Source of the DNA: a virus
DNA: 64,000 bases
Virus record (IMG/VR): IMGVR_UViG_3300013005_003552
Span: 80,266 to 144,265 of that record
Strand: one strand, 5' to 3'
Each line of letters begins with the position of its first letter. Positions within the stretch are counted from its first letter, which is position 1. The notes under the pieces are model-generated. The model did no database searches and was not told the origin of the DNA. It was given only the letters and a program-made list of their open reading frames with translations. The translations under genes and the position numbers were made by a program. Shown piece after piece: positions 59,100-64,000 of the stretch.

Positions 59100-59128
59100 T
59101 TGACACAAATTCACATCTGCAATATACT
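59100..59128 (+). promoter_or_regulatory. Sigma70-type promoter, TTGACA-17-TATACT
   Basis: A perfect -35 TTGACA (59100-59105) and TATACT (59123-59128) are 17 bp apart. It lies 33 nt before the MoxR ATPase ATG with TAGGAG between. Confidence 0.8.
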
Positions 59129-59160: not shown

Positions 59161-60282
59161 ATGGCGGCACAAACAAGCGAAAATCGTACTATCACAGCAA
59201 TTGAGGCTCGCAAGACTATCATGCGATGCTTTAAGAAACAGCGCCCTGTGTTTCTCTGGGGCCCCCCGGGCATTGGCAAGAGTGAGCTGGTAGAAGGCAT
59301 CACCAATGAACTTGACGGTTTCATGATTGACTTACGACTAGGTCAAATGGAGCCCACTGACATCCGAGGCATTCCTTTTTACAACAAGGACTTGGGTAAA
59401 ATGGATTGGGCACCGCCTGTTGACTTGCCCGACCAAGAACTGGCCAGCCAGTATCCTATTATCGTTCTATTTTTGGACGAACTTAATTCAGCGGCGCCGG
59501 CTGTGCAAAGTGCGGCGTACCAGCTGATTCTAAATCGGCGTGTGGGAAAATATGTACTACCCAACAATGTGGTTATGGTTGCCGCCGGTAACCGCGAAAG
59601 CGACAAGGGTGTTACATTCCGCATGCCGACCCCTCTTGCCAATCGCTTTGTTCACCAGGAATTGCGTGTGGACCACGGCGCCTGGGAACAGTGGGCAGTG
59701 AACAATAAAATCCACAAAGATGTGGTTGGTTATGTTGGCTTTGCCAAACAAGACTTGTTTGACTTCGATTCTCGCAGTCCCAGCCGTGCGTTTGCCACAC
59801 CACGCACCTGGAGCTTTGTGAGTCAATTCTGTGAAGACGAAGACACAACTGATGCAGAATTGACTAACCTGATTGCAGGTACAGTTGGCGAAGGCATTGC
59901 CATCAAGTTCATGGCTCACCGCAAGGTTGCAGGCAAGATGCCCAAGCCCGACGATGTGCTCAGCGGTAAAGTAACTACTCTTGACACCAAAGAAATTAGT
60001 GCTCAGTACTCGCTGGCAGTGAGCTTGTGCTACAGCCTGCAAGAGAAGTTTCAAGCAGTGCAAGGCGACAAGACCAAGATGGATGCATGGCACCCGCTGG
60101 CTGACAACTTCCTCAAGTACATGATGGACAATTTCAACACTGAGTTGGTGGTCATGGGTTCGCGTATTGCACTCACTACCTACAACCTGCCGCTGATCCC
60201 CAACAAGCTCAAGAACTTTGACGAGTTCCACAAGCGTTTTGGCAAGTACATCCTGGCTGCAAGTGCTCGCGAGAAAGCCTAA
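59161..60282 (+). CDS. MoxR-family AAA+ ATPase
   Basis: The 373-residue protein is a MoxR-type AAA+ ATPase: Walker A GPPGIGKS (34-41), IIVLFLDELNSAAPAVQSAAY as Walker B and following helix, VVMVAAGNRESD as sensor 1 and FRMPTPLANRFVH. MoxR ATPases act as chaperones for partner VWA-domain proteins, and such a protein is encoded next. It has its own promoter and is followed by a terminator. Target is unknown. Confidence 0.88.
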   Translation: MAAQTSENRTITAIEARKTIMRCFKKQRPVFLWGPPGIGKSELVEGITNELDGFMIDLRLGQMEPTDIRGIPFYNKDLGKMDWAPPVDLPDQELASQYPIIVLFLDELNSAAPAVQSAAYQLILNRRVGKYVLPNNVVMVAAGNRESDKGVTFRMPTPLANRFVHQELRVDHGAWEQWAVNNKIHKDVVGYVGFAKQDLFDFDSRSPSRAFATPRTWSFVSQFCEDEDTTDAELTNLIAGTVGEGIAIKFMAHRKVAGKMPKPDDVLSGKVTTLDTKEISAQYSLAVSLCYSLQEKFQAVQGDKTKMDAWHPLADNFLKYMMDNFNTELVVMGSRIALTTYNLPLIPNKLKNFDEFHKRFGKYILAASAREKA

Positions 60283-60286
60283 AACG

Positions 60287-60322
60287 AACAGAGTGGGTTT
60301 GACCATAAATCCACTCTGTTTT
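60287..60322 (+). terminator. Intrinsic terminator overlapping next promoter
   Basis: ACAGAGTGGGTTT pairs with AAATCCACTCTGT (one G-T pair) across a 6-nt loop, followed by TTTT, 5 nt after the MoxR stop. The -35 of the next promoter sits in the loop and the -10 directly follows the T-run. Confidence 0.85.
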
Positions 60323-60327
60323 ATAAT
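60299..60327 (+). promoter_or_regulatory. Sigma70-type promoter, TTGACC-17-TATAAT
   Basis: TTGACC (60299-60304) and TATAAT (60322-60327) are 17 bp apart, inside the terminator hairpin of the upstream gene. It precedes the VWA gene with AAGGAG. Confidence 0.78.
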
Positions 60328-60350
60328 ACATACTCATATAAGGAGCCTGC

Positions 60351-61628
60351 ATGTCAACTGCATCCACTACTCTTAACGAAAAGATTAAGAAAAAAGATTT
60401 ACCCAAGATTGAGTTTGATCAAAAGCGCGACAATGCTGTTCGCGAAAAACTGATCACAGCTCGTATTGCACTGTTACTCAAAGCACCGTTTTTTGGCAAC
60501 CTTGCAACTCGCATGAAACTGATCAATGGTGACGAATGGTGTCCTACTGCGGCAACCGACGGACGCAATTTCTACTACAATACTCTTTTTATCGAAAAAC
60601 TACCTCCTAAACAACTAGAGTTTTTAGTTGGACATGAGGTTTTACATGCGGTATATGATCACATGGGTCGCCGAGGTGATCGTGATCCTATGATTTTTAA
60701 TGTGGCCAATGACTTTGCTGTAAACAGTGATTTGGTTGATCAAAAGGTTGGCGAACGCATTAGTGTTGTGCCCATGTTGTACGATTCAAAATATCGCGGC
60801 ATGAGTTCAGAAGAGATCTACGACGATCTCATGAAGAATGTCAAGAAGATCAATTTAGATCAGCTGGTCGAACAACTGCTAGACGAGCATTTGGATGGTA
60901 ACGATGGTGAGGATGACGGCGACGGCGACAAGGACGGCAAAGGTCGCCCGCGTTTGAGCGAAGAAGAAAAACAGCAGATTCGCGACGAGATTCGCGAAGC
61001 GGTATTGAATGCTGCTCAGCAGTCAGGTGCAGGCAACTTGCCCGCAGGTGTCAAGCGTCTAATCAAGGACTTGACTGAAAGTGTTATTGATTGGCGCTCA
61101 TTGTTGGAACAGCAAATTCAAAGCACAATCAAGAGTGACTTTACTTGGATGAAGCCTAGCCGTAAAGGATGGCACATGGATGCTATCATGCCTGGTATGT
61201 TGCCTGGTACACAAATTGATATTTGTGTAGCAATTGACACTTCGGGCTCAATCAGTGAGCGTGACATCAAAGACTTCATGGCCGAGATCAAGGGCATCAT
61301 GGAAGCCTACGACGAGTACAAGATTCATGTATGGTGCTTTGATACAGAAATCTATAATCCGCAAATCTTTACTAGTGAAAATCTAGAAGACATTGCCAAC
61401 TACCAACCAGCCGGGGGTGGCGGCACAGACTTTATGGCAAACTACGAGTGGATGAAGGCCAACGATATTCAGCCCAAGAAGTTTGTTATGTTTACTGACG
61501 GCATGCCGTTTGGTGAGTGGGGTGATGAGCAGTATTGCGATGTATGTTGGATCATCAAAGGCAACCCTGGCTGTGAACCACCATTTGGTGTGTGGGCTCA
61601 TTACGAGGAGGCAGCAAAAAGCAAATGA
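60351..61628 (+). CDS. VWA-domain protein with metallopeptidase-like N-domain
   Basis: The 425-residue protein has an N-terminal putative metallopeptidase domain (HEVLHAVYDH, H95, E96, H99, a zincin HExxH motif), an acidic linker (DGNDGEDDGDGDKDGKG), and a C-terminal VWA domain with the MIDAS motif DTSGS (D296, S298, S300) and MFTDGMPFGE. This is the DUF2201 plus VWA-like arrangement typically paired with MoxR ATPases. Substrate and purpose in the phage are unknown. It has its own promoter. Confidence 0.85.
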   Translation: MSTASTTLNEKIKKKDLPKIEFDQKRDNAVREKLITARIALLLKAPFFGNLATRMKLINGDEWCPTAATDGRNFYYNTLFIEKLPPKQLEFLVGHEVLHAVYDHMGRRGDRDPMIFNVANDFAVNSDLVDQKVGERISVVPMLYDSKYRGMSSEEIYDDLMKNVKKINLDQLVEQLLDEHLDGNDGEDDGDGDKDGKGRPRLSEEEKQQIRDEIREAVLNAAQQSGAGNLPAGVKRLIKDLTESVIDWRSLLEQQIQSTIKSDFTWMKPSRKGWHMDAIMPGMLPGTQIDICVAIDTSGSISERDIKDFMAEIKGIMEAYDEYKIHVWCFDTEIYNPQIFTSENLEDIANYQPAGGGGTDFMANYEWMKANDIQPKKFVMFTDGMPFGEWGDEQYCDVCWIIKGNPGCEPPFGVWAHYEEAAKSK

Positions 61629-63282: not shown

Positions 63283-63555
63283 ATGAGTACAGTGGAATCA
63301 CCCGAACCGCGTCCTACGCTTGGCGTAACCGATTTAGTGAATATTGCCCAGATTATACAGTTGGCTACTAGTAGAGGCAGTTGGAAGACTGAAGAACTCA
63401 GCACAGTTGGCAATACCTATGACAAATTGATCGCGTTTCTAGAAGCAGCTGGTGCTGTTACTAGAAGTGCGGCTGACGACACCGCGCCGTCAACAGAAAC
63501 AGTAGCGGAACCTAAGGAGAAAAAAAATGCTAAAGCACGTGGTAAAACACAATAA
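63283..63555 (+). CDS. Hypothetical protein with acidic-basic tail
   Basis: The 90-residue protein has a helical first half (LVNIAQIIQLATSRGSW) and a disordered charged tail ending in KEKKNAKARGKTQ. TGGAG precedes the ATG. It overlaps the next gene by 29 nt. Function unknown. Confidence 0.62.
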   Translation: MSTVESPEPRPTLGVTDLVNIAQIIQLATSRGSWKTEELSTVGNTYDKLIAFLEAAGAVTRSAADDTAPSTETVAEPKEKKNAKARGKTQ

Positions 63556-64000
63556 TCGTCGGGCAGCTCTGTTGTATCGCAGAGTCCCCGGCGAAGATCA
63601 TATGTGTCTTTTGGTTTACAGCGATCTGCTGCCCAGAATGATTCATGATGAAATTATGAAGGTACTAGAAAGTGCCCCTGGTCAACAGGCCAACGACTTA
63701 GCCGATGCTCTGTTCCGCAATATAATGCCCGATGGTCGTAACACACTTCAGGTGCTACACGCCGAAGGCATGATTCAAAAAGTTCCTTGCAATCAAGTTA
63801 TTGTTCAGGCCAATGCCAAAAGTACTGTACGACTAGATGAACTCAATGACATTTTGGACGAAATGGCCAAGGGCCAGGAAGCTGTGCAACGCCTGGCAGA
63901 ACTTGATCACAAAGTAACCGGTTGGAAACCAGGCATGCAAGAACGCGAAGCTGCCAAACCAAAAGCCAAAGTAGTAGAAGGTCGTGAAGTTGGTGCACCA
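63527..64000 (+). CDS. Conserved phage protein, 3' partial
   Basis: The frame starts with ATG after AAGGAG and stays open to the right edge (158 codons, no stop). The product begins MLKHVVKHNNRRAALLYR, then VYSDLLPRMIHDEIMKVLES, QANDLADALFRNIMPDGRN and a TVRLDELNDILDEMAKGQE helix. I recall similar proteins of unknown function in other T4-like phages. The predicted charged C-terminal linker continues beyond the window. Confidence 0.72.
   Translation, partial: MLKHVVKHNNRRAALLYRRVPGEDHMCLLVYSDLLPRMIHDEIMKVLESAPGQQANDLADALFRNIMPDGRNTLQVLHAEGMIQKVPCNQVIVQANAKSTVRLDELNDILDEMAKGQEAVQRLAELDHKVTGWKPGMQEREAAKPKAKVVEGREVGAP

Follow-up and report, generated by a model that had tools for sequence, protein, structure and literature searches.

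What does a large phage gain from a pair of adjacent genes that resemble a MoxR-type AAA+ ATPase and a metallopeptidase-like protein with a von Willebrand factor A (VWA) domain? The question is raised by a stretch of 64,000 nucleotides, called here the window, which comprises bases 80,266-144,265 of a 144,265-base virus record (IMGVR_UViG_3300013005_003552) and carries the two genes at 59161-61628. The reading favoured here, with a probability of about one half, is that they encode the two parts of a conserved ATP-driven remodelling machine, which large phages would produce in the early-to-middle phase of infection and which would work within the cell. The sequence itself shows a MoxR-type AAA+ motor and a partner in which an acidic linker joins a zincin domain to a VWA domain that carries a metal ion-dependent adhesion site (MIDAS), each gene having a promoter of its own. 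An earlier note on this DNA had proposed such an ATPase and partner, and both open reading frames (ORFs) were found exactly on the plus strand, like all features given below, at 59161..60282 (373 residues) and 60351..61628 (425 residues), together with Walker motifs, PF13203, PF09967, the motif HEVLH and a complete MIDAS.

The ATPase is assigned to phrog_1297, the family of N4 gp24, on the basis of its ORF, Pfam and PHROG matches, alignment and a structural model with a predicted local distance difference test score (pLDDT) of 93.6. Alignment locates a Walker A motif, GPPGIGKS (residues 34-41; 59260..59283), and a Walker B motif, LDE (residues 105-107; 59473..59481), and the sensor-1 Asn (N144) and a conserved arginine, the Arg finger (R162), are present as well. 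K40, D106 and E107 are kept in 76 of 77 distinct phage rows, the exception being the truncated row of JSF3. PF00004 and PF07728 lie above their Pfam cut-offs, and the MoxR-type AAA_3 family scores 24.5 bits at a cut-off of 27. In the model, a beta hairpin (residues 71-84; 59371..59412; strands 71-75 and 80-84 by DSSP) lies where clade-7 AAA+ proteins have their helix-2 insert, to which it is tentatively attributed by its place. Fold comparison has among its top matches NorQ (Z 15.2, root-mean-square deviation (rmsd) 3.7, 223 residues aligned) and CbbQ2 (Z 14.9); since dynein AAA modules match about equally well, NorQ is not singled out by fold alone. By sequence profile, the strongest solved match is Midasin (E 1.8e-28).

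The partner belongs to the DUF2201 zincin-VWA proteins (phrog_1314, the family of N4 gp25; ORF, Pfam and PHROG evidence, model pLDDT 87.1), and both PHROG profiles match their respective proteins over nearly the full length. Pfam places PF13203, 'putative metallopeptidase domain', at residues 33-272 (E 7e-37; 127.9 bits, cut-off 23.2) and PF09967, 'VWA-like', at residues 291-414 (61221..61592; E 6e-21; 75.2 bits, cut-off 26.4). The N-terminal domain carries the HExxH motif HEVLH (residues 95-99; 60633..60647; alignment and conservation), around which profile comparison finds an M48 peptidase (E 0.009) as well as the solved zincin MJ1213 (E 3e-4). Beyond the motif, H104 and D121 are conserved too and count as candidate ligands of the metal. 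In the alignment, the MIDAS is formed by DTSGS (residues 296-300; 61236-61250), T359 and D383, and a fold search limited to residues 285-423 returns the VWA fold (Z 12.8, rmsd 2.6, 138 aligned), with NorD absent among the matches listed. The two domains are joined at about residues 176-205 (60876..60965) by a linker modelled with low confidence (pLDDT 56-67 in blocks 181-200), and the description of it as very acidic holds, aspartate and glutamate making up 40% of its residues in the window protein and a median of 34% over 127 distinct sequences. Shortly before the VWA domain, a conserved element of low pLDDT (about residues 258-288; 61122..61214) is a candidate 'finger' by analogy with NorD (PMC13036017). 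Domains and motifs together support a chaperone-type MoxR/VWA pair, as had been supposed.

Many records describe this partner as something else altogether, namely an HNH endonuclease. The label is attached to phrog_1314 in PHROGs and appears in 23 of the 60 partner rows listed (e.g. NC_008720 gp25 and NC_071039 gp144), with metallopeptidase-type names in 9 of the 60. The label is what speaks for a nuclease; however, the significant Pfam matches are zincin and VWA only, with no HNH family among the matches up to E 1, and on this evidence the nuclease identity is rejected as having almost no chance of being correct. Its main effect is to hide the partner on many records.

Conservation points to the same two domains. 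Identical and near-identical loci were removed before alignments and before the counts on promoters, neighbours, conservation, folding and terminators, and the conservation set comprises 127 distinct sequences (the window and viral contigs), 19 reference phages and 74 bacterial or archaeal genome rows. The neighbour gene in phiKT1024, not recognisable as a partner, was dropped from this set and from the trees; it remains in the first alignment and in the search profile built from that alignment for the pair-proximity counts. H95, E96, H99, H104, D121 and five MIDAS residues are invariant in all 127 window and viral sequences. Among the reference phages, E96 is changed only in Atu_ph07 (to Q, giving HQxxH) and H104 only in JSF3 (to D), and 72 of the 74 genome rows have E96, the other two showing a gap. 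These alignments thus show strong constraint on the metal site, and nearly as strong a constraint on the catalytic Glu. The partner of rv5 (NC_011041 gp012; L092:7756-9081) reads HGVGH and has an aberrant C-terminus, the related naswa and APECc02 reading HEVGH with a longer C-terminus; because the C-terminus of rv5 is aberrant too, while naswa and APECc02 keep HExxH, this loss is set aside as doubtful, a sign of faulty sequencing or else of decay of the gene in this one isolate. The loss of HExxH or MIDAS residues in relatives, envisaged in the earlier note as evidence to the contrary, is not seen in the 127 window and viral sequences; the exceptions to HExxH elsewhere are Atu_ph07 and the doubtful rv5. 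One viral relative (L008:6587-9206) has two tandem partner genes, 50% identical, after a single MoxR gene, and its lower-scoring copy carries T359N in the MIDAS.

When are the two genes expressed? The promoter scan finds a σ70-type promoter before each of them, TTGACA-17-TATACT at 59100..59128 for the MoxR gene and TTGACC-17-TATAAT at 60299..60327 for the partner gene, both matching 11 of 12 consensus positions with a 17-bp spacer, so that the individual strong host-type promoters of the earlier description are borne out. A loose promoter scan gave no enrichment (19 found versus 16.4 +/- 3.9 expected). Sites of at least 11/12 number 15 on the coding strand of the 144,265-bp record and a single one on its complement, for an expectation of 1.35 per strand and a maximum of 4 in 20 Markov-1 simulations; some near-consensus promoters of the record immediately precede single genes, those for GTP cyclohydrolase and the 5'-3' exonuclease among them. 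The arrangement recurs in relatives, which were searched from 250 bp upstream to 60 bp inside the gene start: 125 distinct viral loci provided 123 partner and 116 MoxR genes, genes with too little upstream DNA and loci without a MoxR gene being omitted, and a site of at least 11/12 was present for 95 of the partner and 56 of the MoxR genes, the control figures being 33 of 472 for other ORFs and 45 of 625 for random windows. The Fisher p values (2e-55 for the partner, 2e-23 for MoxR) are uncorrected for shared ancestry and thus overstate the independence of the loci.

A 16-bp, terminator-like hairpin after the MoxR gene (60286..60321; folding, terminator search and alignment) encloses the -35 box of the following promoter. 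In the window, it is followed immediately by the -10 box, with terminator-like stem and promoter overlapping within about 40 bases (60286-60327). The hairpin is near-identical in a close relative (L002), and similar folds occur in two others (L006 and L007). A terminator before or over the partner -35 box is nevertheless a minority trait and not general, being found in 20 of 114 relatives (window included) versus 18 of 342 control windows, and folding of the promoter region in relatives is weaker than in random windows (94 sites, mean -8.4 versus -11.7 kcal/mol). The T4-type late motif TATAAATA has 4 matches in the record, none of them before the pair, and so few matches do not permit a contrast with late promoters. 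Taken as a whole, the promoter evidence supports two separate transcription units with host-type promoters and early or middle use.

Other phages agree with this timing. In AR9, an annotated early promoter directly precedes g028-g029, and as 33 of 34 predicted early promoters were confirmed and the sole miss lies before g057 (PMC5312081, in excerpt), the promoter of g028-g029 was probably among those confirmed. N4 gp24 and gp25 are called middle transcripts in the available text of PMC4193335, and the rv5 record annotates the σ70-type promoters P4 upstream of MoxR and P11 upstream of a two-gene run with the partner. For PA5oct, temporal transcriptome data are cited in the excerpted PMC6950013. 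Early (or middle) use of the module is thus supported, as the earlier note had suggested for the early phase, no sign of late-only expression was found, and we infer early expression for the window's own phage.

Expression of this kind does not by itself decide between a role inside the cell and a role in the virion, since phage assembly chaperones can be made early as well, and a chaperone and maturation protease that folds, assembles or trims structural proteins is a possible reading, although a clearly less probable one. It is the only functional proposal for the pair found in the open-licence literature searched, and it was made for jumbo phages by analogy with a pair of the Acidianus two-tailed virus (Iyer et al. 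2021, PMC7824862). Several observations would suit it and weigh against the favoured remodelling machine: the PA5oct record flags the MoxR homologue as ESI-MS/MS (electrospray ionisation tandem mass spectrometry), an AAA ATPase next to a metallopeptidase is reported for DC4 virion preparations, with caution on the part of the authors (PMC10638138, in excerpt), the pair of 121Q is flanked by structural genes on both sides, and that of S-TIM54 adjoins a virion gene. To these must be added that Atu_ph07 does without the catalytic Glu, that the ATPase and peptidase activities are predictions, that the finger role of residues 258-288 is deduced from position only, and that no experiment on the function of the pair in any phage was found in the open-licence literature as available. 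Virion assembly, for its part, fits poorly with the early or middle promoters, with the nucleotide-metabolism neighbours at many loci and with the presence of the pair in N4-like podoviruses and myoviruses alike, which one tail type cannot explain. In AR9, virion proteins are late in 41 of 43 cases, the other two being g084 and g215, so that g028 and g029, with their early promoter, are probably not virion proteins (excerpts of PMC5312081); homologues of gp24/25 are likewise not listed as roseophage virion proteins in the accessible part of PMC4193335. An intracellular target, either of the host or of the replication and nucleotide machinery, is in our view likelier than a stable place in the virion.

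The neighbourhood of the pair bears on the target. The window also encodes a T4-type DNA polymerase (phrog_262), the 5'-3' exonuclease and the GTP cyclohydrolase, and downstream of the pair thymidylate synthase occurs in 67 and dihydrofolate reductase (DHFR) in 59 of 126 distinct loci, counts that are lower bounds because many loci end early. A dCTP/dCMP deaminase or thymidylate synthase is annotated nearby in N4, roseophage V17, QDWS595, 121Q and Vibrio phage 2.275; neither is annotated in the stretches examined around the PA5oct or rv5 pair. In 109 of the 126 loci, a 232-residue protein family to which no function is assigned (phrog_15894) is encoded some 2.5 kb downstream from where the partner gene starts (e.g. 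L229:8916-9611), its homologue in the window (63527-64000) being cut at the window end. These surroundings, together with the mechanism of NorQD (excerpts of PMC13036017), could suggest that the pair inserts metal into, or matures, a phage enzyme of nucleotide metabolism, just as NorQD acts on nitric oxide reductase. Such a role is improbable, given that the neighbourhood may reflect shared timing only and that neither thymidylate synthase nor DHFR is known to require an inserted metal. No conserved metalloenzyme was recognised near the pair, where most neighbours are of unknown function. The neighbours of the bacterial loci gave no specific hint of a target.

Alternatively, the pair could be directed at the host, as a protease that eliminates a single host complex in the service of counter-defence or of host shut-off. 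The early-type promoters and the HExxH motif in all 127 window and viral sequences would fit such a role, which is nonetheless unlikely, as Atu_ph07 has lost the catalytic Glu, the pair is common in bacterial genomes too, and PADLOC returns no match to the partner and only weak AAA matches to MoxR. Strong conservation of this sort is, in addition, unlike that of most counter-defence genes. As regards the action on host complexes early in infection that had been suggested for the pair, the timing fits, and a host target and its cleavage are proposals only.

The distribution of the pair is wide, and its conservation in other phages, which the earlier note named as a check, is borne out. A tblastn search over 50,697 phage records found the partner in 773 and MoxR in 800, the carriers including N4-like podoviruses, Vequintavirinae, jumbo myoviruses, Bacillus phages G and PBS1/AR9 and a cyanophage. 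Of 157 viral loci, 150 have MoxR close to the partner, as do 71 of 80 bacterial or archaeal genome loci, and distances in the one protein correlate with those in the other (r 0.87 over 103 rows, uncorrected for common descent). The partner tree comprises 111 rows, 37 of which form a starred clade made up of every one of the 18 viral rows, 12 reference phages and 7 loci from metagenome-assembled genomes (MAGs); phage G groups with three Bacillales MAG loci and S-TIM54 falls inside a bacterial group, both starred. The MoxR tree (103 rows) places phage G in a starred set of 22 whose other 21 members are genome rows, its five nearest rows being Bacillota. The positions of phage G and S-TIM54 suggest that the pair was captured from bacteria more than once, the number of captures being uncertain because one MAG supplied all three Bacillales loci, which may themselves be viral, and because some branches are long. 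Eight of the 74 genome rows lie on the phage-rich side of the drawn root, and the 7 of them within the main phage clade are perhaps phage contigs binned into MAGs. The eighth row, L176, joins PBS1 only by long branches. An 18.6-kb Bacillales MAG contig, CANHCR010000048.1, carries two copies of the pair (L113 and L127), with MoxR convergent to the partner.

How might the remodelling machine work? The best reading of its design likens it to Midasin (Rea1) or NorQD cut in two. Midasin offers the closest solved AAA+ module by sequence profile and has an acidic stretch before its MIDAS domain; it differs in uniting six AAA modules in a single giant chain, in lacking a peptidase domain and in acting on pre-60S ribosomes. 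NorQ/NorD of Paracoccus and CbbQ/CbbO share with the phage pair the MoxR fold, a VWA partner with MIDAS and the candidate finger at the same place; in contrast, the available text of PMC13036017 and PMC9976466 mentions no zincin domain in NorD, and NorQD has a known metalloenzyme target. In NorQD, the finger before the VWA domain enters the pore of the ring, the C-terminus touches the ring as well, and a linker is twisted by ATP turnover (PMC13036017), and MIDAS mutants keep NorQ binding and fail on the target (PMC9976466, both in excerpt). By analogy with NorQD and Midasin, six MoxR subunits would form a ring, the VWA domain of the partner would dock on it via the pre-VWA element and the C-terminus, and the MIDAS metal would grip an acidic residue of the target. 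With ATP turnover, the acidic linker would then transmit a pull or twist of the VWA domain against the zincin domain at the N-terminus, and the target, of host or phage origin, would be dismantled, matured or cut. It is from the conserved element at residues 258-288 and the flexible acidic linker that we infer a NorQD-like mode of action.

In its boldest and rather doubtful form, this idea amounts to a 'split Midasin with a blade', an ATP-driven takeover motor derived from bacteria by more than one capture, common to N4-like podoviruses and to myoviruses, jumbo phages included, and made early, which would grip one multiprotein complex of the host by its MIDAS and pull while the zincin clips. 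Were this true, the N4 core genes coding for gp24 and gp25 would be a general motor for dismantling host complexes.

It is finally with the phage systems already on record that the window pair has to be compared. N4 gp24 and gp25 form a homologous pair (PHROG E 2.7e-97 and 8e-110; phmmer 127 and 121 bits) with the same gene order and with HExxH and MIDAS intact; they differ in showing about 27% identity each to the window proteins and in being middle transcripts, the window genes each having a host-type promoter. The accessible text of Chan et al. 2014 (PMC4193335) counts both among the 14 genes that form the core of 25 N4-like phages, and among the five of these listed without known function. 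AR9 g028 and g029, named by their depositors after their domains (AAA ATPase; 'zincin-like protease fused to vWA domain'), show the same pair and order behind one early promoter; they are very divergent, and in AR9 it is a virion RNA polymerase of the phage itself that transcribes the early genes (PMC5312081). The jumbo-phage pair described by Iyer et al. shares architecture and pairing, the closest named relatives of the window partner being Phosso (46%), PA5oct (44%) and Atu_ph07 (37%); those authors propose virion assembly, whereas the promoters, timing and neighbours in this analysis point rather to the early-to-middle phase. A paper joining the jumbo, N4, AR9 and Vequintavirus versions was not found in the open-licence literature, which is incompletely covered. 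The pair itself is thus already known as a kind from N4, AR9 and the jumbo-phage family, and this analysis contributes the union of these versions into one family, promoter evidence replicated across relatives, the conservation of the catalytic residues and the recognition of the misleading label. With its members early or middle in several unrelated transcription schemes, this joined family makes an old unknown testable in the E. coli phage N4.

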